Below, piece after piece: positions 1 to 16,447 of a stretch of DNA of 64,000 nucleotides. Source of the stretch: Rivularia sp. T60_A2020_040. GTDB taxonomy: Bacteria; Cyanobacteriota; Cyanobacteriia; Cyanobacteriales; Nostocaceae. The translations under genes were made by a program, and so were the position numbers. The number at the start of each line of letters is the position of its first letter. Within the stretch, counting starts at the first letter, position 1. The stretch spans positions 33,144 through 97,143 of the forward strand of contig JACYMD010000028.1 in the NCBI GenBank assembly GCA_015272215.1, written 5' to 3'. Under the pieces are notes generated by a model. The model did no database searches, was not told the DNA's origin, and saw only the letters and a program-made list of their open reading frames with translations.

Positions 1-552
1 TTTAGTTTCATCAACCGTACTTTGTACTGAATTAGCAATATTTCTGACAGCAGGCTTAGCTTCTTCCGATACACCTTTAACTGCTTCAACTACAGAAGGC
101 TTAGATTCTTGAACTGTATCTTTAATTGCTTCTGCGGTATCGACTACAGAAGGCTTGGCTTGCTCAACTGTATCTTTTACTTGTTCTACCACACCTTTAA
201 TAGAAGGCTTAACTTCTTCTGCTGTATCTTCTACTACATGACCTACAGTATCGATGGCGCTATTTGCGTGTTCAGCTACAGTTTCAGCAGCATCAACAAC
301 ACCTTCTACAGTTTTATCAACAGCTTCAGATGTACCCTTACCAACCATTGCACCAGCTGCTGCACCGGCTACTGCACCAAGAATTCCTTTTCTTGCACCG
401 AGTAAACCACCAATTGCAGCTCCAGCAACCGCAGCACCAATACCAGAACCCCCAGAATTAGACTCTGAATTCTTTTGTTCTTGTTCTTGCTCTTGTTGCT
501 CTAAGTTCTGATTTTCTGCTTGATTTTCTAAAGGTTGGTTGTTCTCATTCAT
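1..552 (-). CDS. Glycine-zipper, coiled-coil-like membrane-associated protein (3' end off the window)
   Basis: Open frame on the minus strand from an ATG at 552 to the left edge, 184 codons without a stop, so the C-terminus is missing. Residues about 1-35 are Gln/Glu/Asn-rich. Residues about 36-75 form an Ala/Gly-rich stretch with GxxxG-type spacing (GAAVAGAAIGGLLGA...), as in glycine-zipper proteins that associate with membranes. The rest is an acidic, amphipathic series of about 18 residues per unit with a recurring (E/K)(E/Q)(A/S)KP(S/A)V signature, seen at least three times, resembling YtxH or LEA-like proteins. Function unknown; a stress or envelope-associated role is inference. The gene would be easy to miss because it has no stop in the window. 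Confidence 0.75.
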   Translation of the reverse strand, partial: MNENNQPLENQAENQNLEQQEQEQEQKNSESNSGGSGIGAAVAGAAIGGLLGARKGILGAVAGAAAGAMVGKGTSEAVDKTVEGVVDAAETVAEHANSAIDTVGHVVEDTAEEVKPSIKGVVEQVKDTVEQAKPSVVDTAEAIKDTVQESKPSVVEAVKGVSEEAKPAVRNIANSVQSTVDETK

Positions 553-4015: not shown

Positions 4016-4609
4016 TTATTTAGTCCTAGGTGCTTCTAGAATTTGTTCTTGTACAGGATTTGTATTTACGATAGGAGTCTTGCGCTGTAAGTCAGCATCG
4101 TAAAAATAAACGCGACTGCAATACTGAGTAGAACTAGAACAAGTCGCTTCAATAGCAACATTACTCACATTGTTGACATTAAGGGATAAATTTGCTGCTT
4201 GTGTTGGAGCAACAGTAACAGTTTGAGTTGGTTGTCCATCCAAGTAAAATTTAATTTGAATACTAGGACTATTTACATTATTGTCACGCATCCCAAAACC
4301 CAAATTTAAAGTTTCAAACACATTTTGAGGACGATTATCCGGTTTAATTTTACAAGTTAAAGCAGCCGAACGATAGCCCGGACTCAAGTAAAATTTACTA
4401 TTGTAAACAGCTTTACCGATAGAAATATCAAGTTTTTCCATACGGACACTACCGATTCCACTTTTAACACAATTAGCTCTCAACAAAGAAATCGGACGCA
4501 TTTGTTTTTGTTGTTGAGCAGTTGCTTCACCCAAAGGAAAGAGAGCGGGTAATATTACCGCAATTGGTAGAATAATTGAACCAATTAATTTATTTTTTTT
4601 CATTGACAT
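4016..4609 (-). CDS. Secreted protein of unknown function
   Basis: 197 residues with a clear Sec signal peptide: basic n-region KKNK, hydrophobic IGSIILPIAVILPALFPLG and a likely cleavage after ATA (about residue 31). The mature part is predicted beta-rich with three or four Cys (NCVKSG, LTCKIK, EATCSSSTQYC) that could pair in the periplasm or outside. I recognise no domain. It is convergent with the kinase at 2160-3968 and is followed upstream by a repeat-rich spacer. Confidence 0.7.
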   Translation of the reverse strand: MSMKKNKLIGSIILPIAVILPALFPLGEATAQQQKQMRPISLLRANCVKSGIGSVRMEKLDISIGKAVYNSKFYLSPGYRSAALTCKIKPDNRPQNVFETLNLGFGMRDNNVNSPSIQIKFYLDGQPTQTVTVAPTQAANLSLNVNNVSNVAIEATCSSSTQYCSRVYFYDADLQRKTPIVNTNPVQEQILEAPRTK

Positions 4610-5011: not shown

Positions 5012-5096
5012 CTTCACTATTCCCTATTCCCTTCCAAAAAAAGGGATACGAAAACCCGCATCCCAAAGTTGTAAAGGAAGAGTTTATTGATTGAAA

Positions 5097-8000
5097 TTAA
5101 TCAACTCTGACGCGGAAACGAACAAATCCAAATTGTCCACCAGCAGGTAAAGTACCTAAATTCGTAAGTACAGCACCATTTGCAGGAGTACCATTACGGC
5201 AAATATTTTGAAAATCTGCGGGTACTGGTGCTAAAGGTGATAGGAATGTACCGTTATCCGCACCGTCACCACCTCCATTGACAAGAATACTACCGGCTAC
5301 AAAAGTTGTATTGCTAGGAATTAAGTCGCAGAACTTGACATTTTGCAAACTTTCTGCACCTTCACTTAAGAAGTAAATAGTATATTCTACGATGTCACCG
5401 CTTTGTACGGGTGTTTCTAAGCGAGTAATACCTACAGGTGAAGATTGTGGAGATGAATTGAGTACATTATCATCATCGTCGCTGCCGTCATCTTGAAATT
5501 GATTGAAAGCAACTCCACTAATCGGTTGATTACCTCTCAATACATTGGTAATACGCTTGACTAAACGTAAGTTTATCGGACCTGATGCACCCAAACGACC
5601 GGGACGGAAACCAAAGTCAACCTCATCTGTGTCGGGATTTGCTTGAGTTAACTCAGCACTTAAGGTTGTTTGAGTGGTAGGACTAAAGTCAGTAGGTCTT
5701 GCAGATTCTACAGTGTATGTACCAAGAGGTAAATTATCAAAAGTATAGTTACCATTTTGGTTAGTGGTTGTGGTTCCAAAATCCCTACCTGCGGAATCTC
5801 TCAAAGTTAATTGAACTCCGGGAATTCCGGGTTCCCCTTGATCTTGTACTCCATCACCATCTGTATCATTGAAAACAGTATCGCCGATAGAACCGGGTAA
5901 TCCAGTCATTCTGATACCAAAATCAGCACTATCTAAGTTTTGATTGGGTTCCAGACGTACCGGAATTGGATTAGCACCTGTGGTTAGAATACTACCATCA
6001 GGAAGCGCCATCTGTACTTGATAATTTCCTGGTGGAAGATTGTTAAAGGTATATCTACCAGGGGTATTTTGGTTAAAAGCAAGAGTTTCAGTGTTATCGG
6101 TGCGCTGTTCATCTATTTGGTCATCCGAAGTACCAAAAACACCATCTTCTCCGGGACGAATTAATCTAACTAAAACACCGCTAACTCCCGGTTCACCTTG
6201 ATCTTGAATGCGGTTAGCATTTACGTCAGCAAAAACCGTATCACCAATGGAACCTTGGGTTGGTGGTTGAAAACCAAAATCAACTGTATCGATATTTTGA
6301 CCAGCTTGTAAAGTCACTGGGTTTGGTTGAGTCAACGTTGGATTCAAACCTGGAGGAGGATTCTCAATTGTAACGGTGTAAGTACCCGGTGCTACGGTGA
6401 AATTGTAGATTCCATTTTCTCCAGTAGTAGTTCTCGCCACTTCATTTCCGTCAGTATTTCGTAGAACTAAGGTAATTCCGGGGATTCCGATTTCGTTTAA
6501 GTCAGGAGTACCATCCCCATTGTTATCGTAGAAAACGAAGTCTCCAATTGTGCCAACTTGTTGCGCTGAGAAACCAAAGTCAGCAGTATCAAAGTTTTGA
6601 TCGCGTTGTAAAGAAATAGTACTTGGTGGTGTTTGAGTCGGACTTAAACCATCGGGAGGATTATTTACTGTAACTCTGTAGTTACCAATAGGTATATCGG
6701 GGAAACTATATCTACCGTTACTATCGGTGGTAGTGGTGGTGACGGTAATATCATCTGAGGTACCCAATTGATTATCCGGACCCGGACGAGTTAAGGTAAC
6801 TACAACGTTGGGAATTCCCGGTTCACCTTGGTTTTGAGTTGCATCGCTGTTATTATCCCGATAAACGGTATCGCCGATTGTACCCGTGGGTTGGGTGAAG
6901 CCAAAATCAGCGTCCTCGAAATTTTGACCCGCATTTAAATTAATCAAACCATTAGGAGTTTGGGTTGGAGTCAATTCGCGAATTGGTTCCTGAGATTGGT
7001 CGTTAATGGTAACTCTGTAAGTTCCCGCAGACAAATTGGGGAAAGTGTAACGACCATTTGCATCGGTTCTAGTTAGACCACTGGTATCATCATCATCAAG
7101 ACTATCACCAAATACACCATCAGGTCCGGTACCGGCATAGTTGACAATTACACCAGCAATTCCCGGTTCACCTGGGTCTTGTTGACCGTTATTATTAATA
7201 TCTCTGTAAACCGTATCCCCAATTGTTCCCGTACCTTGTTGTGTTGGTGCTAAACCAAAGTCAATGGTATCTAAATTTTGATTGGCTGGTAAATTAATTG
7301 TCTGTGGTGGGGTTTGAGTGGGTGTTAAACCATCGGGATTGGTAATCGTAACTCGGTAATTACCCGCAGGCAAATTAGGAAAACTATAATTACCGTTTTC
7401 GTTGGTAGTTGTAGTTTGCGTGGTATCGTCAGGAGTACCAAATTCACCGTCGGGACCGGGAAGGGTTAAAATAACCGTTACCCCTGGAATCCCAGTTTCA
7501 CCTTCGTCTTGAGTATTATTACGGTTAGTATCTGTGTAAACCGTATCCCCAATACTACTTTGTCCTTGACCTAATTGTCCCGGTACAAAACCAAAATCAA
7601 CTGTATCGATATTTTGACCTGGTTGTAACGCTACAACATCCGGTTGGGTTTGAGTCGCAGTATCTCCTTCCCTAGGACTCGTTGCGGTAACTCGGTAATT
7701 ACCCGCAGGCAAATTAGGAAAACTATATCTACCTTCGGTGTTAGTAGTTGTAGTTTGGGTGGTATCATCGGCAGTGCCAAGCTGACCATCGGGACCGGGA
7801 AGCGTCAAAGTAACTGTTGCTCCTTCAATACCCAGTTCACCTGCATCTTGGACATTGTTACGATTGGCATCGGTATAAACAGTATCTCCGATACTACCTA
7901 CAGAAGATGGTGCATAACCGAAATCAGCAGCATCAAAATTATTACCCGCTTCTAAGACAATAGTTTGTGGTGGTGTTTGAGTCGGAGTTAAACCATCGGG

Positions 8001-9074
8001 AGGATTATTGACAATAACTCGGTAATTACCCGCAGGTAAGTTAGGAAAACTGTATCTACCGTTATCGTCAGTAGTAGTATTCTGGGTAGTATCGTCGGGA
8101 GTGCCAAGTTGACCGTCGGCACCGGGACTTGTCAAAGTCAAGTTAATTCCAGGAATACCCGGTTCATCAGGATTTTGAGTACTGTCACCGTTGGTATCAC
8201 GATAAACTGTATCACCGATTGTAGCTGCATTATTGACGGGCGCACAAATAGTAAATGGTGCTAAACCGATAGTTTGATCTTGTCCTGGTTCACCGAATTC
8301 CCTTCCCACTTGATATTGAATGCGGATTTGGTCTATGGCACCTCCTGGTGTGATGGAAACGTTGCCTTCACCTTGGGCGGGAGTTGAATTATCGACGATA
8401 CCCAAAGCAGAATTCCCGGAAATTCTCGTAAAATTACCCAGGGATTGTAAATTAACGGGGACATTAGAAGTTTCATTAGATGCTGTTACCGTAACTACAT
8501 CTTGGAAAGTTCGACCGCTATCTCGCGGACCATCGCGGTCAACATCTAATAAAGTTAAAGGTGATGCTAAGGTGACGCTTTGAGCAAAAGTAATAGTAAA
8601 AGCCGCGCTACCCGGAGAAAGATTACCAGTTTCCGGAGGTTTACCTGGTCCAATATTTAATCGTAAATTCGGTCCGGGAATACCACCGTAAATATCAGTA
8701 CCAACTCTTGATTCGGTTCTATCAATAACTTGACCGGGAACTTCTTCGGTAATCGTCAAGATGGTACGGATACCGCCAATATTATACTCTTGTGTTAAAT
8801 CTGATAAGTTATCACTAGGACGTAACTGTACTGTTTCTGGTGCAGTTCCCGCAGGACAACTGGCTGTAGTTTGTGCAATAGCTTTACCGGAACCAAATAT
8901 GGGTACTTGAGGTACACCCAATAATGCTGCTAATAAGGTTGTGGAGAGAAAGGGTACAGAAATGTTGTGATGAGGAGGTGAAGTATGATATCTGCTCCGG
9001 AGACGTTCCGCTAACACCACCTTACCAGCGTTGCCTTGAGTAATTGCCGATAAATGCTTAAATAAAGCTTTCAT
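5097..9074 (-). CDS. Surface adhesin-like protein with eight SdrD B-type repeats
   Basis: About 1325 residues. I place the start at the ATG at 9074 because AGGAAG lies 7 nt upstream; a TTG six codons earlier is weaker. The N-terminus has a signal-like hydrophobic stretch (VPFLSTTLLAALLGV) and a likely cleavage near AIAQTTA. After an N-terminal beta region of about 220 residues come eight SdrD B/Cna-B-like repeats of 100-115 residues, each opening with (G/S)(S/T)IGDxV(Y/F)xDxNxxxxQDxGExG. Their Asp/Asn loops match the calcium-binding pattern of that family. In 9092-based numbering they start near 289, 399, 512, 620, 735, 845, 945 and 1065. The C-terminal 160 residues resemble a DUF11 domain (SGDIVEYTIYFLSEGAESL). 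Last gene of a four-gene operon; likely displayed at the cell surface. Confidence 0.88.
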   Translation of the reverse strand: MKALFKHLSAITQGNAGKVVLAERLRSRYHTSPPHHNISVPFLSTTLLAALLGVPQVPIFGSGKAIAQTTASCPAGTAPETVQLRPSDNLSDLTQEYNIGGIRTILTITEEVPGQVIDRTESRVGTDIYGGIPGPNLRLNIGPGKPPETGNLSPGSAAFTITFAQSVTLASPLTLLDVDRDGPRDSGRTFQDVVTVTASNETSNVPVNLQSLGNFTRISGNSALGIVDNSTPAQGEGNVSITPGGAIDQIRIQYQVGREFGEPGQDQTIGLAPFTICAPVNNAATIGDTVYRDTNGDSTQNPDEPGIPGINLTLTSPGADGQLGTPDDTTQNTTTDDNGRYSFPNLPAGNYRVIVNNPPDGLTPTQTPPQTIVLEAGNNFDAADFGYAPSSVGSIGDTVYTDANRNNVQDAGELGIEGATVTLTLPGPDGQLGTADDTTQTTTTNTEGRYSFPNLPAGNYRVTATSPREGDTATQTQPDVVALQPGQNIDTVDFGFVPGQLGQGQSSIGDTVYTDTNRNNTQDEGETGIPGVTVILTLPGPDGEFGTPDDTTQTTTTNENGNYSFPNLPAGNYRVTITNPDGLTPTQTPPQTINLPANQNLDTIDFGLAPTQQGTGTIGDTVYRDINNNGQQDPGEPGIAGVIVNYAGTGPDGVFGDSLDDDDTSGLTRTDANGRYTFPNLSAGTYRVTINDQSQEPIRELTPTQTPNGLINLNAGQNFEDADFGFTQPTGTIGDTVYRDNNSDATQNQGEPGIPNVVVTLTRPGPDNQLGTSDDITVTTTTTDSNGRYSFPDIPIGNYRVTVNNPPDGLSPTQTPPSTISLQRDQNFDTADFGFSAQQVGTIGDFVFYDNNGDGTPDLNEIGIPGITLVLRNTDGNEVARTTTGENGIYNFTVAPGTYTVTIENPPPGLNPTLTQPNPVTLQAGQNIDTVDFGFQPPTQGSIGDTVFADVNANRIQDQGEPGVSGVLVRLIRPGEDGVFGTSDDQIDEQRTDNTETLAFNQNTPGRYTFNNLPPGNYQVQMALPDGSILTTGANPIPVRLEPNQNLDSADFGIRMTGLPGSIGDTVFNDTDGDGVQDQGEPGIPGVQLTLRDSAGRDFGTTTTNQNGNYTFDNLPLGTYTVESARPTDFSPTTQTTLSAELTQANPDTDEVDFGFRPGRLGASGPINLRLVKRITNVLRGNQPISGVAFNQFQDDGSDDDDNVLNSSPQSSPVGITRLETPVQSGDIVEYTIYFLSEGAESLQNVKFCDLIPSNTTFVAGSILVNGGGDGADNGTFLSPLAPVPADFQNICRNGTPANGAVLTNLGTLPAGGQFGFVRFRVRVD

Positions 9075-9104
9075 TTTGTGCTTCCTAAACAACGAAAATT
9101 AAAG

Positions 9105-9183
9105 AATTGGTAATTGGTAATGGGTAATTGGTAATTGGTAATTGTTAACTCCTAAACTTTGACCTTTAACCTTTAACCTTTTA
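9105..9183. repeat. Two STRR arrays between adhesin and OmpA-like gene
   Basis: 9105-9143 holds GGTAATT/GGTAATG heptads. 9158-9183 holds (A/G)ACCTTT heptads that run up to the stop codon of the upstream gene. Together they fill the 106 bp between two genes of the operon. Confidence 0.8.
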
Positions 9184-11487
9184 TCTTCTTCTTTCAATTT
9201 GCAAATCTTGTTCTTGGTCTTCAATAATCAGGTCTATACCCCTAACATCTTTAAAGATGATTTCAGTACGTCGATCGCGGGCGAAATCGACTATATCTGT
9301 ACTACCAGGAACTTTACGTTGAGATTCACCAAAGGAACGTATGGTCATTCTTTCTGGTGCAATTCCTTGACGTAATAGATAATTTCTGGTAGATAATGCT
9401 CGTCGTCTACCTAATGCTTGGTTATAAGCATCACTCGCACGAGGGTCGGTATGACCTTGCAATTCGATGACGATGAATGGATATTGTTTAAGTACTTCTG
9501 CTACGCGGTCTAGTACTTTTGCACTTTCGTCACTAATGAAAGATTTATCTAGGGCAAAGTGGATGTTGCGTGGTACTTGGATACGAATCGGTTCCGGTGG
9601 CGCTTCTGGTGGTGCTGGTGGTGGTGCTGGTGGTTCTGGTGGCGGTGGTGGTACTGGTCTAGAAACGCACTCAGGGGGATTTATCGGGTCAATTCTCGGT
9701 GTAACATTCACCGTGGGTGGGGTATCAACGGTACCAATCATTGACGCTGCCGCAGGTTCCGATGTACCGTACTTGGGGTCAGTGGCGATCGCACTAATTA
9801 CATCGCCGGTTTGGACGTTTTCTAGTTGAGCGGTAAATCTACCGTCTTCCCCAGCAGAAACTATAGTTAAGGGTTCGCTTAATGCACCGTATCCGGGTTG
9901 ATAAATGGCGTTTTCCCCGCGCTGATAATCAGAAAGCCGATAAATTGTAATTTCACTACCTTGATCTGCTTTACCTGTGACGGTGGCAGTTGTACCTTGA
10001 TTTGCAAAGGCTTTTTCACTGAATTCGGGAGCGTTAATTGCCGCATTTCCGGTGTCTTTGCGACGATTTGCGGAGTTACGTCTGGGATTAGGACCATCTC
10101 CGCGCTGAAAGTCAATTACACCCAGGTTCCCTTGACTGTTGAGGTCGATACTCAATCCTTCTAATGCCGCGAATTTATTATTGCGAATATCGTTACGTAT
10201 GGCAATTTCTCTTCTACCAATATCGTTTCTAGGAAAGGCTGTAACTACTACCCCAGGTCCGGTTTGATGGTCAATTTCGTTACCAATTACTTGATGTTCG
10301 CTGCCCATGACGAAAACTGCTGCTCGTCGGAGTCTTCTACCGTTATAAGTAATTTTATTATTTTGTACGAGTATCTTACCTTGGGGTTTGAATAAATAGA
10401 CACCAGCGCCGTCGTTAGCACAAATTAAGTTACCCAAGATTTGCGAGTTATCCACAACGCCTTCAAACCTCAAAGCATCAGGCATTCCATCGATACCGTT
10501 ACCGATAATAATGTTTTGCTCTACCTGTGTATTGGAGGCTCTAACTGAGGTAATAATTGCACTACCGGCATGATAAGAAATCCGGTTTTTGCGAATTGTC
10601 GCACCTTGGCTATTAAATAAATAAACCCCAAAAGCGGAAATTTGATCGGGCATTCTTTCATCGGTAGTTATGCCCAACCAGTTATTTTCAATCACCACGT
10701 TTTTCGGGGGTATATCTCGTTCCCGAAACGGAAAGTTACTCGCAGGTGGTTTCTGTTGACTGATGTCGGGAGGAGGTAAACGGTGAGCGATGACAATATT
10801 TCCTGGTGGAGTTGTCAGAGTTGCGGGTTCGGGTTTACCGTCGTAAATCAATGCACTTCCCAATTGTTGTTTGATGGGTTCGGCATTAAAACCGTACATA
10901 TTCAAACCGCGAATAGTGATATTATCCGCAACCACTGTTAAACCGCGAAATACTTCTTGTCCGGTTGCGGGTTTAATTGTCACCAAGGGAATGGGAATCT
11001 CAATTTCCGCAGTTGCGGAAGTATTAGGATCGTATCCCGGTTGGGTACTTCCATCAATTGTTAATCCTGGTACCGCTAAATCGGGTAACACCGTTTGTAA
11101 CTCTATAGTTGTGGCACCACTGGGTAAATTAAATTCAATGGTGCTGCTACCAGTGGCGGGAGTAATTTGAGCTTGTTCAGCGCTGCTGAGTTGTTGGGGG
11201 GTTAGAGTTCCGTTGACAACTTCAATGGCTTCGCGCAAAGTTAATTGAGCATCCGCCGTTATCGGACCATCTGCATTGCTATTTACTACCACTCGCACGG
11301 GAGTGGGTGATGGGGCAATTGGGGCAGCCGGAGTTTGTGCAAATACTCTCGAAGCTAAGACTCCGTTAAAGCAAGTAGCTAACCCTAAAGGCAGAACGTA
11401 AAATATTTTTTTATTCGGTAAAAGCGAACAACTCACCTTTAACCTTTGATCTATAACCTTTGACCTTTTAGACCTTTTTTTCGACAT
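9181..11487 (-). CDS. Beta-helix protein with C-terminal OmpA peptidoglycan-binding domain
   Basis: 768 residues. Signal peptide: basic n-region (KKRSKRSK...), hydrophobic IFYVLPLGLATCFNGVLAS and cleavage near VFAQT. Residues about 68-95 resemble a CSLREA-type N-terminus (ADAQLTLREAIEVVNG). About 190-440 is a right-handed parallel beta-helix with recurrent N-rich turns (VVIENNWLG, ATIRKNRIS, ILVQNNKITYNG). After a Pro/Glu-rich linker (PPPPPEPPAPPPAPPEAPPE) comes an OmpA-like domain (about 650-755): HFALDKSFISDESAKVL, VIELQGHTDPRAS, GRRRALSTRNYLL, IRSFGE. The domain would bind peptidoglycan in the periplasm, with the helix outside or periplasmic (inference). Residues about 6-17 are encoded by an ACCTTTR heptad array. 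Third gene of the operon. Confidence 0.88.
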   Translation of the reverse strand: MSKKRSKRSKVIDQRLKVSCSLLPNKKIFYVLPLGLATCFNGVLASRVFAQTPAAPIAPSPTPVRVVVNSNADGPITADAQLTLREAIEVVNGTLTPQQLSSAEQAQITPATGSSTIEFNLPSGATTIELQTVLPDLAVPGLTIDGSTQPGYDPNTSATAEIEIPIPLVTIKPATGQEVFRGLTVVADNITIRGLNMYGFNAEPIKQQLGSALIYDGKPEPATLTTPPGNIVIAHRLPPPDISQQKPPASNFPFRERDIPPKNVVIENNWLGITTDERMPDQISAFGVYLFNSQGATIRKNRISYHAGSAIITSVRASNTQVEQNIIIGNGIDGMPDALRFEGVVDNSQILGNLICANDGAGVYLFKPQGKILVQNNKITYNGRRLRRAAVFVMGSEHQVIGNEIDHQTGPGVVVTAFPRNDIGRREIAIRNDIRNNKFAALEGLSIDLNSQGNLGVIDFQRGDGPNPRRNSANRRKDTGNAAINAPEFSEKAFANQGTTATVTGKADQGSEITIYRLSDYQRGENAIYQPGYGALSEPLTIVSAGEDGRFTAQLENVQTGDVISAIATDPKYGTSEPAAASMIGTVDTPPTVNVTPRIDPINPPECVSRPVPPPPPEPPAPPPAPPEAPPEPIRIQVPRNIHFALDKSFISDESAKVLDRVAEVLKQYPFIVIELQGHTDPRASDAYNQALGRRRALSTRNYLLRQGIAPERMTIRSFGESQRKVPGSTDIVDFARDRRTEIIFKDVRGIDLIIEDQEQDLQIERRR
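11436..11470. repeat. STRR heptads inside the 5' end of the OmpA-like gene
   Basis: (A/G)ACCTTT-type heptads (ACCTTTAACCTTTGATCTAT..., on the plus strand) lie inside the coding region and encode part of the basic n-region of the signal peptide. Confidence 0.65.
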
Positions 11488-11520
11488 TGCTCACATCCTG
11501 TGACACCACATTTGACCGAA

Positions 11521-11550
11521 TTTTAGATTTTAGATTTTGGATTTTGGATT
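11521..11550. repeat. STRR heptad array (ATTTTAG/ATTTTGG)
   Basis: Four tandem heptads of the 4647-4679 type in the 146 bp spacer between the OmpA-like and barrel genes. Confidence 0.7.
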
Positions 11551-11633
11551 AAGTAAAATAAGTCAAAATCCCTGCCTGCATCCTCATCCGTCAACGACCT
11601 AAGTAATTAAACGCAATAAACGGATGAATGCAA

Positions 11634-14600
11634 TTACTTTTTCAAATTGTTTATCAGCTTGACTTGAGAAGATTTGATATTGGGGATTTGAGATTGTTCT
11701 CTTCCCTCTTCCCTTCTCAACCGATTCACTAGTTGACTAGATTGATTTTTCTTCAAACGTTCAGTTAACTTTGTCTTGGGTTTCTCAGATTGAGAACCAT
11801 TTCTGACTAAAGGTGAAATCTCCGATTCCTGCTCTTGTTTGGGTACTGGTTTTTGTAATCCAAATCCGCCAAATAATTCATTCAATTTCAAGCTGACATT
11901 GAGATATAATCCACCTTCGGAACGGTAGCCGGTAAAATCGCGATCGTCTACGCTACCAAATGCATAACCTACTCCCAAACGTAAATCTGGAGTTAAATAA
12001 TATCCACCTTCTACAGCAATTCCGAATTCGTCGAAGTCCGCATTACTATTGGAATTTTGACCAATCCAACGTCCTTCTACGGCTAAGTCGGTACGGTAGC
12101 CCAATTTATAGGTAGCTCGTGCTTGCGCCAAGTTCACTGTTCCCTCATAACGTTCTCTGTCAAAATAAGTTACACCGTTACGCAGAGCATATTTACCGAA
12201 AAATTCCCATCGCCAAGAAGGTGCATAGATTCCTTCTGCTGAAAATACGTGTCCGGTGGCTGTAGAACTTCCTGTAAACTGATTTTCGGGTATAGAATCA
12301 AAGTTTTGTCGCCATTCGTATTTGAGCAAGCCGTTAAATTTATCGTTAGTCGGATCGCGATAAGCTAAACCAATTTTTAAATTAGCGGTGTCTCCCAATT
12401 CTTCAAATCTGACTCCTTCAGTACCGCCCAAATTGCTGATGTTAGAAGGTAAAAATACGTTGGCTTCACCGGCTTGCTGATAACGCACTAATGCAGTTAA
12501 GGCAGGGGAAATTTTACCTGCCGCACCCGCAGAAATAAAGGTGCTGTTACCTTCTTCTCCATCGCGCAATTCAAACCTACCGCTGGCTTTAAAGTCCGGA
12601 TTATCGGTATATTCCAACCCGACGCTGTACACAGAACCGGAAAACAATCCCAAGGAAGATGCCGTTTGTCCAACTGCGTAATATTGCGGAAATCTATCTC
12701 CCGCAGCAGTCGCATTAAAGATGTTTCTAAATACGTATTGATAACCCAAACTCAACCGCAATCCCGGCGCGATGGGCATTCCGTGATTAACTCCTAATGC
12801 ACCTTGTCCCTGCATACCGTTGAAGCCCGATAGTACCGAATACCGTCCGTTGAAGGTAGTATCTTTAGCTAAGTTGTAATCAAGTAAAGTATCTAAAGTG
12901 GTCAGGGAATTACCTTCTAACAAGCTGGTATCGTCAAACCATTGATGTGCCAGTCTAAAGGTAACTCCTTCAAAGGCTTGCCAATCTAACCCTAATGTGG
13001 TTCTGTTGGGATAAAGTGGGTCGGAACCGTCGATATTAGCTTCATTGAGCGCTTGAAAAGTCAAAGATGGAGTCAAAGGCACTTTCAACCGGGAAACAAT
13101 CTGCTCCGCATCACCACTCAACACATTATTTATCCTATCTTCCCGCGAACGATTCACGTATTCGACACTAGCATCCGCAAAGCCAAACTTTTGTAAAATA
13201 CCCGCTCGGAAAGTCTTTAATTCGTTATCCAAAGCTTGCCCCGGACGTGCTTGGGGTTGGGGATCGAATAAATCAAAGAAGTTTACTAAACCTGTGGCAG
13301 CCCTACCGAAGTTTTCTTCCACATCGTAGGATATACCTAGAGTTGTAGTATCAGTTAATTTACCCAGTAACCCCGCACCATAACGAGTTTGTCCGGGTGA
13401 AAAGCTGAAAGTAGCGTTGTTATTAAAATTCTCCTCCACCGAACGGTAATAAGCATTCAAGTTCACGCGGTCGTTTAAATTACCAATCGCTTCTACTCGA
13501 TAAGCATTACCTTGTTGATTTTGTCCGCCACCGATATCGCTTTCCGAACGAGCATATTCACCGAGAATCTTACCCCAACGACCGAAGGAAAATTGGAAAT
13601 CTGCTCCATACAATTCAAAATCGCGATCGCCTTGATCTTCTCTCAAATAAGAACCGGCGATAAATGACTTATTATCAAAGTTTTGGGAAATGTTAAATTG
13701 CGCTCTTGCACCGTAAATATTGCCATCTTCACCAAATTCCGGCTGGTAGGTGACAACAATTTGTCTTTGCAGAGTTGCTCCAAAAGGATTAAGTTCTGTT
13801 GCTAAAATTGGACTAAAGAGCCTAATTGTGCCTCGATCATAATCTATTTCGTAATCTCTACCGCGATATAATTGCTGTCTTTTAACAACAGTACCCGGAC
13901 GGTTAATTTCTTCTGCTTCTAAATAAACATTCTCACTTCCAGGAACTAACAACCGTCGGGATAAAAAGTAATTACCGCTGATACCTATAGGCACAAAAGT
14001 ATCCCGCTGAAAACCTTCGACGTTATTGGCATATAAACCAGTTATCTGCAACGGACCAAAACTATAATTACCTTTAAAACCGTGCAGTTGACGTGAAATT
14101 CCACCGTAAAGCTGGGAAGGTCGAGAAAATTCCTCGGTGTTATAATCCCCCCACATGGCATAATCGGGGTCTGCTCCAGGTACTTTGGAACTGCGCTCAA
14201 ACCGAGCATAAAAGCTGTCTATGGAAGGTGTAGTAGGAGTCACCGTAGAACTATCACCATATACAGGATACTGCTGCTCGCAAAACTGAATCCCGCCAAA
14301 TAAACTGTTTCTACCTTCACAATCCTGGTTAATCGGTCGCTCGCTATTAAAAGCTCCAGTAAACAACCATTCCCCTACTTTACCAGTCGCAAATACCTGA
14401 GAACTCAAATCTACCTCTGTGCCACTGCTTGCTTCTGGGTTGAGGAATTCTCTCCGACTACCCCAAAAATTCGTTCCCCTTGCACCGATTCGCAGGTTGA
14501 CAATACCCGTAACTAAGGAAGGTCGTAAATAGGTAGTAAATTCGACTTGGGTGTAAGCTTCTATCGGCTGGTCAATCAGTTCGTTATTAAATAGAGTTGT

Positions 14601-15515
14601 ATCTCTACCGCTTTCTAAGAGAATTTCTCCATCAATTGCTCGCTCTCTCTGTCTCAGGGTAGATGTGGGTTTTTTAATTTTATGAACAGCCGCCCGGATA
14701 CGCACAGATTGAGGTTTCAATCCTGATTGCAAAGTGGCGATAAACTCACCGTTGATGGCACGGGCTTGAAATCCCGGTGCATCTTTGTCTTGATCGGAAC
14801 CGATAAATTTACCTGCACTGCTCGTTAGAGTTACCAATACATCTCTTGGAATAACCTGCCCTTCTTTGTTGACTATCTGTCCTCGAATTTGAATTGTCGA
14901 ACGTCCATCAGCCTGCACTACCGGATCTCCTACTGCTGAAATATCCAGTTGCACTTCACTACGACTTCTCTCGCTCCTCCCAGGTGTAGAATTCTCTTGG
15001 AGAGGATTTAAGGGTTCCACTTGGGTTTTCTGGTTGTTAGGAGTGGTAGGAGCCTCAAATAATGACTCTCCTTGTTGTTCAAACAAAGAGTCTGGCTGTG
15101 AACTTCCCCCAGAATTAGGAGATACTGGACTGTCTCCTATTTGTGCAAGCTCAACTGATTGCTGTGGAGTTGGAGAAATCTCTTGAGTTTTATCCTCTTT
15201 TGATGTCTCCGCAGACAGTGAAACTTCAGAGATGGAAGGATTTCCCGGCTCTTGACTTTTTACCTCTTTTACTGTACCGAGAGCCTCTCTTAATCTAAGA
15301 CTAATGTCTAATTGAGTCTTTTCATCTGATTCAGCAGCGACAGCAGCGTTAGAAGACATTGCAGAAAATCCGACAATCGCCATAACGATCGGTAAAATTC
15401 CGGTGCCACCGAACTTTAATAAGACAGATAACATCCTATGGAAAAATTGTTTTTGGTGACGATATTTATGACTATTGCTCAATCGCACGTGAGATTTAGT
15501 TAATTTCTTAATCAT
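11634..15515 (-). CDS. Large outer-membrane beta-barrel protein with N-terminal Big-1-like domain
   Basis: 1293 residues. Start is the ATG at 15515, which overlaps the stop of the upstream gene (ATGA) and has GGAGGG 6 nt upstream. A long n-region precedes the signal sequence (about 28-58, LPIVMAIVGFSAMSSNAAVA). Residues about 65-185 are Gln/Ser/Pro-rich and look disordered. About 188-290 resembles an invasin Big-1-like fold (DGRSTIQIRGQIVNKEGQVI). About 330-1225 is a long series of alternating amphipathic beta-strands (FRLAHQWFDD, LRLGVGYAFGS) as in a TonB-receptor-sized barrel, ending in GLYLNVSLKLNELF. No plug or TonB box is obvious. It continues for about 65 very basic residues beyond the last strand. 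Probably an outer-membrane exporter or anchor for its operon partners (inference). Confidence 0.82.
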   Translation of the reverse strand: MIKKLTKSHVRLSNSHKYRHQKQFFHRMLSVLLKFGGTGILPIVMAIVGFSAMSSNAAVAAESDEKTQLDISLRLREALGTVKEVKSQEPGNPSISEVSLSAETSKEDKTQEISPTPQQSVELAQIGDSPVSPNSGGSSQPDSLFEQQGESLFEAPTTPNNQKTQVEPLNPLQENSTPGRSERSRSEVQLDISAVGDPVVQADGRSTIQIRGQIVNKEGQVIPRDVLVTLTSSAGKFIGSDQDKDAPGFQARAINGEFIATLQSGLKPQSVRIRAAVHKIKKPTSTLRQRERAIDGEILLESGRDTTLFNNELIDQPIEAYTQVEFTTYLRPSLVTGIVNLRIGARGTNFWGSRREFLNPEASSGTEVDLSSQVFATGKVGEWLFTGAFNSERPINQDCEGRNSLFGGIQFCEQQYPVYGDSSTVTPTTPSIDSFYARFERSSKVPGADPDYAMWGDYNTEEFSRPSQLYGGISRQLHGFKGNYSFGPLQITGLYANNVEGFQRDTFVPIGISGNYFLSRRLLVPGSENVYLEAEEINRPGTVVKRQQLYRGRDYEIDYDRGTIRLFSPILATELNPFGATLQRQIVVTYQPEFGEDGNIYGARAQFNISQNFDNKSFIAGSYLREDQGDRDFELYGADFQFSFGRWGKILGEYARSESDIGGGQNQQGNAYRVEAIGNLNDRVNLNAYYRSVEENFNNNATFSFSPGQTRYGAGLLGKLTDTTTLGISYDVEENFGRAATGLVNFFDLFDPQPQARPGQALDNELKTFRAGILQKFGFADASVEYVNRSREDRINNVLSGDAEQIVSRLKVPLTPSLTFQALNEANIDGSDPLYPNRTTLGLDWQAFEGVTFRLAHQWFDDTSLLEGNSLTTLDTLLDYNLAKDTTFNGRYSVLSGFNGMQGQGALGVNHGMPIAPGLRLSLGYQYVFRNIFNATAAGDRFPQYYAVGQTASSLGLFSGSVYSVGLEYTDNPDFKASGRFELRDGEEGNSTFISAGAAGKISPALTALVRYQQAGEANVFLPSNISNLGGTEGVRFEELGDTANLKIGLAYRDPTNDKFNGLLKYEWRQNFDSIPENQFTGSSTATGHVFSAEGIYAPSWRWEFFGKYALRNGVTYFDRERYEGTVNLAQARATYKLGYRTDLAVEGRWIGQNSNSNADFDEFGIAVEGGYYLTPDLRLGVGYAFGSVDDRDFTGYRSEGGLYLNVSLKLNELFGGFGLQKPVPKQEQESEISPLVRNGSQSEKPKTKLTERLKKNQSSQLVNRLRREEGREQSQIPNIKSSQVKLINNLKK

Positions 15516-16447
15516 TGTTTACCCTCCGAAAATGCAGGCGTAACCCCAAAATTCACCCGCACCATACTTCCAGGTGATAATTTCACCAAGCGTGACGGGC
15601 TATTTGTTTCAATAAAGTATTTATTCGGAGCTAGAGAGTAGCCTGGTAAACTAGTCAAATCCAGCGCCGCAGAACGATAACCGGAAATCACATTAGCTAA
15701 AGAATACATCCCGTTAGCATCGGTAACAATGCGATTGCCATCATCCATGTAAATCACCGCATTCGGTACCCCAGGTTCGTTTGGCTGTTGTTCGCCGTCA
15801 AAGTTTTTATCAATAAATACTCTGCCAATCAAGGTACCGCAGTCGGATAAAATCCCCGATCTAATCCGCAATCTGTGGCTTGATTGGTTACTCCGCAAAC
15901 CTCCAGCTTGGGCTTGCGCTAAGTTTGTGCCGCTTCCGCGTACAGCATCTGGAGTTAGCTCAGCAGCGTAATTAACTATTAAGCTTTCCCCCGGTTGCAA
16001 AGTAGCCGTCGAGTTGATTGTGACATTCGTGCCTCGACTCCCAGGATTAATACTTGGTTCGCTAAACTCCACCGCTTGCTCACCAATAGAACCCCGCAGT
16101 GACTGAGAAACAAATCGCAATCCTAACGGTAATCTATCGGTAATGCTGACATTTGTCGCTGGCGAGCGACCAACATTTTCAAGCCGCAATGTATAAATTA
16201 CCGTATCCCCAGGTTCCGCAGCCGCGCGATCGCCAGTTTTGAGCAACCGTAAATCTGCCGGTGAAGCGCTGAGAATTACTTGATTAGAATCAACTCTTTG
16301 AACGGGTAAATTATCGGCTCCACTACTGGCAGTATTCTCGATCACTGTTTGACCAACAGTCGGTATAATTCCATAAGTAATAACACTCAAGGAACCGATG
16401 GTTAAAAAGAGGCTTTTACGCCTTAGCCATGAGATTAAAGACATCAT
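15512..16447 (-). CDS. DUF11 plus SdrD B-like secreted protein
   Basis: 311 residues, first gene of the surface operon. N-terminal signal (RRKSLFLTIGSLSVITYGII, cleavage near TVGQT). Residues about 62-190 form a DUF11 domain (KTGDRAAAEPGDTVIYTLRL, then NVGRSPATNVSITDRLP), a beta-sandwich common in exported proteins. About 200-300 is one SdrD B/Cna-B-like domain with the Asp loop FIDKNFDGEQQPNEPG. The gene ends in TGA overlapping the ATG of the barrel gene, implying translational coupling. Two adjacent ATGs (16447 and 16444) are possible starts; no strong ribosome-binding site is visible. The role as scaffold or adaptor is inference. Confidence 0.82.
   Translation of the reverse strand: MMSLISWLRRKSLFLTIGSLSVITYGIIPTVGQTVIENTASSGADNLPVQRVDSNQVILSASPADLRLLKTGDRAAAEPGDTVIYTLRLENVGRSPATNVSITDRLPLGLRFVSQSLRGSIGEQAVEFSEPSINPGSRGTNVTINSTATLQPGESLIVNYAAELTPDAVRGSGTNLAQAQAGGLRSNQSSHRLRIRSGILSDCGTLIGRVFIDKNFDGEQQPNEPGVPNAVIYMDDGNRIVTDANGMYSLANVISGYRSAALDLTSLPGYSLAPNKYFIETNSPSRLVKLSPGSMVRVNFGVTPAFSEGKQ

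Follow-up and report, generated by a model that had tools for sequence, protein, structure and literature searches.

A four-gene cluster with a giant predicted outer-membrane barrel in Rivularia, a candidate machine for surface fibres that share a C-terminal domain

Cyanobacteria form sheaths, mats, and biofilms; to our knowledge, little has been reported about any machine that places large adhesins on their surface. The four-gene cluster of Rivularia sp. T60_A2020_040 considered here was compared with six described systems, of which the first three and the last are the closest: (i) the type IX secretion system (T9SS), with its very large single-chain barrel (SprA), C-terminal cargo domain, and partly scattered cargo genes, (ii) type V secretion (two-partner secretion and autotransporters), in which an adhesin-like passenger stands beside the barrel or is fused to it with the barrel C-terminal, (iii) the large envelope barrel SlpA of the Deinococcus S-layer deinoxanthin-binding complex, (iv) the chaperone-usher pathway, (v) the MSCRAMM (microbial surface components recognizing adhesive matrix molecules) adhesins SdrC and SdrD, and (vi) the giant surface hooks formed in Litorilinea by GhlA, a protein with 49 DUF11 domains and a homologue of GhpA of Aureispira (PMC13319060). 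The cluster consists of four minus-strand genes, g1 to g4, running from 16447 to 5097 in a stretch of 64,000 nucleotides (contig JACYMD010000028.1, positions 33,144 to 97,143; hereafter the window), and was delimited from open reading frames (ORFs) with Pfam and NCBIfam scans. On sequence grounds it probably encodes a machine whose giant barrel (g2) exports and anchors surface fibres such as g4 that are tagged with a common C-terminal domain (CTD), with g1 as adaptor and an OmpA domain (in g3) as a tie to the cell wall.

For the predicted barrel, the SprA chains 8gl6 and 8gl8 are Foldseek ranks 5 and 6, among first rows that all have low TM scores. The window barrel scores 12 bits against the SprA model TIGR04189, whose cut-off is 200; its barrel domain has ~900 residues versus ~2000 or more in SprA chains; and among T9SS sorting models none hits the CTD, while TIGR04183 hits the full g4 only below cut-off and within its repeats. 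A small segment inserted in the barrel matches the SprA model weakly (5 of 30 rows, best E 0.0024, with a phage tail tube matched by 4 of 30 by chance), which is a hint rather than a sign of membership, and the scan with PF14349 (SprA_N) is uninformative because neither this genome nor any control genome gives a match. Type V systems differ in that Omp85, POTRA, and autotransporter families are unmatched at E 0.1 in 21 barrel domains of the family and in the full-length g2, which is also unmatched by TonB plug and receptor families in Pfam; type V barrels are smaller, the cluster barrel being two to three times their size. SlpA is the best Foldseek match (E 2.8e-10), but its TM score is only 0.24, no PDB chain matches the barrel meaningfully in sequence, and the cluster barrel is accompanied by a CTD adhesin and the candidate adaptor g1. 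The usher family is found in none of the 21 barrels at E 0.1. The B repeats of SdrC and SdrD recur in g4, which nevertheless scores 281.6 bits against a cut-off of 2500 for SdrD and 276.9 against 1700 for SdrC. GhlA resembles the putative cargo as a giant surface fibre with DUF11 domains and supports fibres as cargo, but g4 is dominated by SdrD_B repeats, and the parts seen of that source mention no cluster of barrel, CTD, and OmpA domain (PMC13319060).

The cluster belongs to none of these systems by the models applied and on that account counts as new as a machine, while its likely job, bringing adhesins to the surface, is of a known kind. The system is real, widely conserved, and, as far as the searches show, undescribed in the titles and abstract beginnings of open-licence PubMed Central (PMC) papers; two papers from that search matched through the words DUF1176 or DUF1134 instead of DUF11 (PMC6304850, PMC12502724). 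The earlier note on this DNA, made from the letters of the window, had suspected a cyanobacterial system of new composition: the novelty stands within that literature, with the refinement that the g1-barrel pair also occurs outside the phylum.

The four genes behave as one system. Among 148 genomes of the order, 68 match the barrel at E 0.001 and 65 hold it at near full length. Sixty barrel loci were fetched and, with the window and a paralogue from the same genome, give 62 loci whose neighbours were mapped by profiles from the window proteins. g1 lies upstream of the barrel in 59 of the 62, the remainder being two contig ends and one locus (L063) scored as lacking g1 by a rule that missed the g1 match present there; the two genes overlap by exactly 4 bp in 32 of the 59. 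A beta-helix gene follows the barrel in 35 of the 62 loci and a CTD protein lies within three genes of it in 40, while the OmpA domain is carried by the beta-helix protein in 18 and by the C-terminus of the barrel itself in 6. A named set, comprising the 59 loci with enough flank among 80, is biased to close relatives because the 80 are the best of 376; here g1 is present in 59/59 loci, the CTD in 58/59 (the miss being L099), the beta-helix in 46/59, an OmpA domain beside the barrel in 43/59, and the 4-bp overlap in 43/59.

The reverse search of the 148 genomes gives the same picture. Strong matches, defined as E <1e-50 for g1 and E <1e-60 for g3, adjoin a barrel on the same strand at 64 of 67 places for g1 and at 38 of 40 for g3, on a barrel list that includes fragments, and no barrel-free genome among the 148 holds a strong match to either. 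The weaker rows, which were dropped, come from pieces of these genes, from generic DUF11, or from OmpA domains that belong to other proteins. The idea of a common apparatus, which the earlier note would have given up had the homologues usually been unlinked, thus gains from the linkage. DUF7925, the family of a large upstream protein in the other cluster type, passes its cut-off in 40 of the 148 genomes, all barrel-positive when the two lists are compared by eye. In the barrel tree, 21 of 23 window-type loci form one fully supported group, the other two lying at contig edges.

The adhesins vary in length (465–2033 residues in the listed set) and in their repeats and share the ending YGFIRFRVRVN or a variant of it. 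Two cysteines of the CTD are invariant across 28 aligned rows (alignment A3), all of which match TIGR01451, the DUF11 family, and nothing else in NCBIfam at E 0.01. The A3 profile finds 104 places in 65 of the 148 genomes. Barrel and CTD occur together in 63 genomes, the CTD alone in 2, the barrel alone in 2, and neither in 81 (Fisher 9e-37); this count omits five fragmentary barrel rows (G000:C17, G125:C80, G037:C42, G060:C1, and G054:C62) as well as row G092, counts a gene split into pieces only once, and merges two-piece CTD hits in three cases. Across loci, barrel and CTD are correlated (Mantel r 0.80, 41 loci, 0 of 2000 shuffles; the decayed barrel remnant L007, excluded from the 62-locus mapping too, and L084_3270, a wrong pick by tail pattern, were left out), a correlation uncorrected for shared species history. 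More weight is therefore given to a within-family test, which covers the 132 of 148 genomes shown with a family: in the 11 families with both barrel-positive and barrel-negative genomes, barrel and CTD agree in 60 of 62 genomes, a level reached by 0 of 20000 within-family shuffles. In a draw of 386 genomes from the phylum, which overlaps the order set, a CTD match is found in 42/42 genomes with a full-length barrel and a full-length barrel in 42/43 CTD genomes, the lists being compared by eye and one genome, G278, matching only half of the CTD model. Generic DUF11 is present in 105 of the 148 genomes, so the tie of the barrel is to this CTD and not to DUF11 in general. The earlier note had taken DUF11 as the common element; it is indeed found in g1 and at the C-terminus of g4, but the key link is the CTD, which tracks the barrel genome by genome.

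CTD genes far from a barrel are the more independent evidence, since the CTD profile was trained on barrel-adjacent proteins. At 46 of the 104 places no barrel lies within 25 kb on the contig; these places fall in 25 genomes, 23 of them barrel-positive (Fisher 5.9e-8). At least 14 CTD genes in 10 genomes are certainly remote, meaning 46 kb to 3 Mb away on the contig of the barrel or separated by 20 kb or more from either end of a barrel-free contig; 13 of these belong to 9 barrel genomes and 1 to G073. Twenty stretches lying apart from the barrel encode 24 CTD proteins, and in all 24 the complete domain ends 0–2 residues from the C-terminus. Seven remote cargo proteins were scanned, of which two show nothing and the others beta-helix, SdrD_B, DUF11, GEVED, and a sub-cut-off lectin domain. 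A domain that is terminal, often remote, and accompanied by the barrel behaves as a sorting signal or a docking signal would.

Relatives of the barrel extend beyond the order, and their gene fusions bear on the role of g1. Other classes of the phylum Cyanobacteriota have distant barrels too, and the locus of one such barrel (L198 3399-19900, genome G184) shows the order DUF11, g1-like, Ig (immunoglobulin-like domain), barrel, DUF11. At this locus the parts stand on separate ORFs, with the Ig domain split from the barrel. A search with the most distant barrel, L201, returns 9 proteins, including P0246 of Psychrobacter, which unites DUF11, SdrD, Ig, and the whole barrel in a single polypeptide (barrel profile E 5e-66 in the set of 9); P0247 to P0249 have the same architecture, except that P0248 has only a weak Ig domain and none was found in P0249. 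Among the matches listed (25 of 49), plasmid records with relatives come from Acinetobacter, many Alphaproteobacteria, Eleftheria, and Vibrio, and the Deinococcus and Thermus rows match in the g1 part only. Gene order was read in eight regions. In Acinetobacter, small DUF11 genes are followed by the genes of a fused DUF11-SdrD-Ig-barrel protein, of an OmpA protein, and of another protein with DUF11; Vibrio has a giant DUF11 gene followed by barrel and OmpA genes. In three alphaproteobacterial loci (L206, L207, and L211) the g1 module lies close to the C-terminal end of a giant DUF11 protein, whose gene overlaps the barrel gene by 4 bp, whereas a fourth alphaproteobacterium, Pacificitalea (L209), unites DUF11, SdrD, and the barrel in a single chain. 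The Eleftheria locus (L205) matches by tblastn only and gives none with the cluster profiles. Since some lineages carry the g1 module on the barrel chain and others carry it on the fibre, its place is taken to be between the two.

The barrel has been modelled alone by AlphaFold2 from 104 sequences, with a predicted local distance difference test (pLDDT) of 76.9 and a predicted TM score (pTM) of 0.72. The model contains 38–39 strands of at least 7 residues, excluding the small inserted domain, and perhaps not all of them are membrane-spanning. The insertion comes after roughly the seventh strand and carries a highly conserved motif (Table 1). An earlier run on barrel plus Ig domain (50 rows) is weak (pLDDT 67.1, pTM 0.51), and its structure matches were therefore used for the Ig domain only, whose predicted fold resembles the C-terminal Ig domains of GH2. 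Foldseek places SlpA, chain B of the Mtr complex, SprA, and FimD/PapC at the top for the barrel, and a second structure aligner is led by the porin DcaP and LptD. Since the TM scores (TMq) are low and the second aligner favours DcaP and LptD, only “outer-membrane barrel” is a safe assignment. Among the 21 barrel domains, Pfam at E 0.1 gives DUF2490 in 12, Porin_4 in 2, and DUF5777 in 1, and none with the TonB plug/receptor, usher, Omp85/POTRA, or autotransporter families. PDB sequence searches with the barrel, the barrel profile, and the inserted segment return nothing useful.

From these features we infer transport and adhesion along the following route. All four proteins would leave the cytoplasm by Sec export, and the g2 barrel, with ~38 predicted strands, would fold in the outer membrane. 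The CTD of the fibre, judging from its co-occurrence with the barrel, may be recognised there, either directly or via g1, the probable adaptor between fibre and barrel. The SdrD_B/DUF11 fibre would then pass outward while its CTD is retained at the barrel, which would keep the fibre on the surface. The OmpA domain of g3, where present, may stabilise the complex against the peptidoglycan or cell wall, as its family suggests. The surface-display, adhesion, or secretion apparatus proposed in the earlier note is of this kind, and such a function may be expected of the cluster.

A stronger version, which we hold only tentatively, is that the cluster represents a new type of outer-membrane secretion system, in which the ~38-strand barrel exports fibres in trans and the CTD is both secretion and anchoring signal. 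The barrel would then rank among the largest single-chain barrels; adaptor, barrel, and fibre would be separate in Cyanobacteria, adaptor and barrel fused in Moraxellaceae, and adaptor and fibre fused in several Alphaproteobacteria. A reading clearly less probable than export with anchoring, though still a serious rival, is that the cluster anchors without exporting: the fibres would exit by another route, and barrel, g1, and g3 would make up a platform or S-layer-like scaffold on the surface at which the CTD docks. The first place of the S-layer barrel SlpA in Foldseek, the OmpA domain that some loci have beside or within the barrel, and the DUF11 type of the CTD, which as a member of that family may only mark fibres that bind the barrel once exported, are all consistent with such a platform. 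What it does not account for by itself is the N-terminal g1 module on the barrel chain of Moraxellaceae and Pacificitalea, a layout of passenger plus translocator. That the barrel is instead a TonB-dependent nutrient receptor, importing a substrate caught by DUF11/SdrD surface proteins, is improbable: 0 of 21 barrel domains match the Pfam TonB plug/receptor families at E 0.1 (the TonB box was not looked for), and 38–39 strands are predicted, despite the many homologues so named in databases and the exbB, exbD, and TonB genes that follow the barrel in Phyllobacterium. Pfam and NCBIfam likewise show no sign of the known, unrelated transporter that the earlier note had allowed for. A loose neighbourhood of surface-protein genes that travel together and share no machine would fit the highly variable cargo and the inconstant OmpA and beta-helix genes, but the tight co-occurrence, remote genes included, and the gene fusions across phyla speak against it, and we give it hardly any credence.

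Several results weigh against a machine that exports and anchors CTD-tagged fibres. The structural matches of the barrel are general only, with TMq values of 0.17–0.25 in the first eight rows. The OmpA domain is undetected by profile in 38 of the 62 loci, and no OmpA gene was found next to the barrel in L206, L207, and L211; on the plasmid of Phyllobacterium sp. 628 (L211 10014-17592) the genes after the barrel encode a siderophore-interacting protein, ExbB, ExbD, and a TonB family protein. No CTD lies within three genes of the barrel in 22 of the 62 loci, of which 10 have <4.3 kb of sequence left. Genomes G026 and G073 encode CTD proteins and give no barrel match, G002 and G138 (the latter 82% complete) have a barrel and no CTD, and the partial distant barrels of G171, G174, and G184 are without a CTD match at 1e-8. 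Of the 46 unlinked CTD places, 15 are near contig ends and 17 are on contigs of unknown length, so that some possibly reflect assembly breaks; one, G118:C82, also holds g3. Of the 24 remote CTD proteins, 6 also match the CTD model in part at internal positions.

If fibres are indeed exported and anchored by the barrel, CTD proteins should be absent from the surface when the barrel is absent. The cluster is a specific candidate for adhesin display, with a likely cargo list found via the tail domain and with relatives in other bacterial groups, where the barrel is often annotated as a TonB receptor. Among laboratory cyanobacteria, Nostoc sp. PCC 7524, Picosynechococcus sp. PCC 7003, and Calothrix sp. 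PCC 7507 carry homologues of the barrel.

The features of the window cluster are collected in Table 1. The close, same-strand spacing described in the earlier note (4-bp overlap, 146 bp, and 106 bp) is present as given, and the domain content it had read from the letters (DUF11/SdrD, Big-1 barrel, beta-helix-OmpA, eight-repeat SdrD) agrees with the Pfam and NCBIfam scans and models. The OmpA/Pal domain of g3 passes the PF00691 cut-off (58.4 bits versus 27.2) and also matches Pal structures by sequence; g4 contains eight SdrD_B repeats (PF17210, 8 stretches, E 1.3e-149).

Table 1. Features of the cluster, numbered from the first letter of the window
Feature	Position	Strand	Remarks
g1	15512..16447	-	311 residues, predicted secreted; adaptor candidate
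g1 domains	DUF11 residues 65-161; SdrD_B-like module residues ~198-311	-	SdrD_B-like module below the Pfam cut-off
g2	11634..15515	-	1293 residues, predicted outer-membrane barrel protein; 4-bp overlap with g1
g2 Big1/Invasin-D3-like Ig domain	14670..14921	-	residues 199-282; below the Pfam cut-off
g2 barrel domain	11811..14564	-	residues 318-1235; 38-39 predicted strands (AlphaFold2)
g2 inserted-domain segment	13650..14027	-	highly conserved motif FQRD..GTSGxYFLS..GSE..RGxDYEIDYDRGT; plug candidate
g3	9181..11487	-	768 residues, predicted secreted beta-helix protein, OmpA domain at C-terminus
g3 OmpA/Pal-like peptidoglycan-binding domain	9256..9591	-	residues ~633-744; PF00691 E 9.4e-16
g4	5097..9092	-	1331-residue predicted adhesin; TTG start at 9092, ATG at 9074
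CTD of g4	5100..5600	-	C-terminal DUF11-type domain, ends GFVRFRVRVD
Terminator-like hairpin with T7 tail	5043..5064	-	just past g4; consensus scan overall at chance level

Promoter-like sites in the window are near chance in a consensus scan (36 versus 32.9 expected), and a PHROGs search matched nothing. Two database proteins, named as Richelia and Rivularia metagenome-assembled genomes, are 99% identical to the g2 barrel.

The same genome holds a second cluster, L006, with the gene order of the window cluster. Its row comprises a DUF7925 protein of 844 residues, a DUF11 protein (189), a g1-like protein (507), the barrel (1520), a beta-helix/OmpA protein (753), a 205-residue ORF, and a CTD adhesin (782). 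The 205-residue ORF (L006 14204-14821), between the g3 and g4 counterparts, resembles a REP-type transposase when judged by eye. A third barrel copy (L007 6796-7971, G000:C17) is decayed, with a 391-residue N-terminal part and a short C-terminal part, and its partner genes are not beside it.

Two of the CTD loci have features of their own. G073 carries two consecutive CTD proteins (L202, G073:C158), and its genus-mates G124 and G138 have the barrel, which in G073 was either lost or missed. In G026, a genome without a barrel match, the CTD ends an open frame reported as 26,976 residues long, in a stretch that is partly N (L191, G026:C59:1-20000).

In the window, a secreted-looking protein of 197 residues (4016-4609) with no Pfam match over cut-off is encoded on the strand of g4 just beyond the terminator-like site, and another secreted-looking protein of 197 residues (898-1491) is built of short repeats of the type GVAGVYNPTTQQIEWK.

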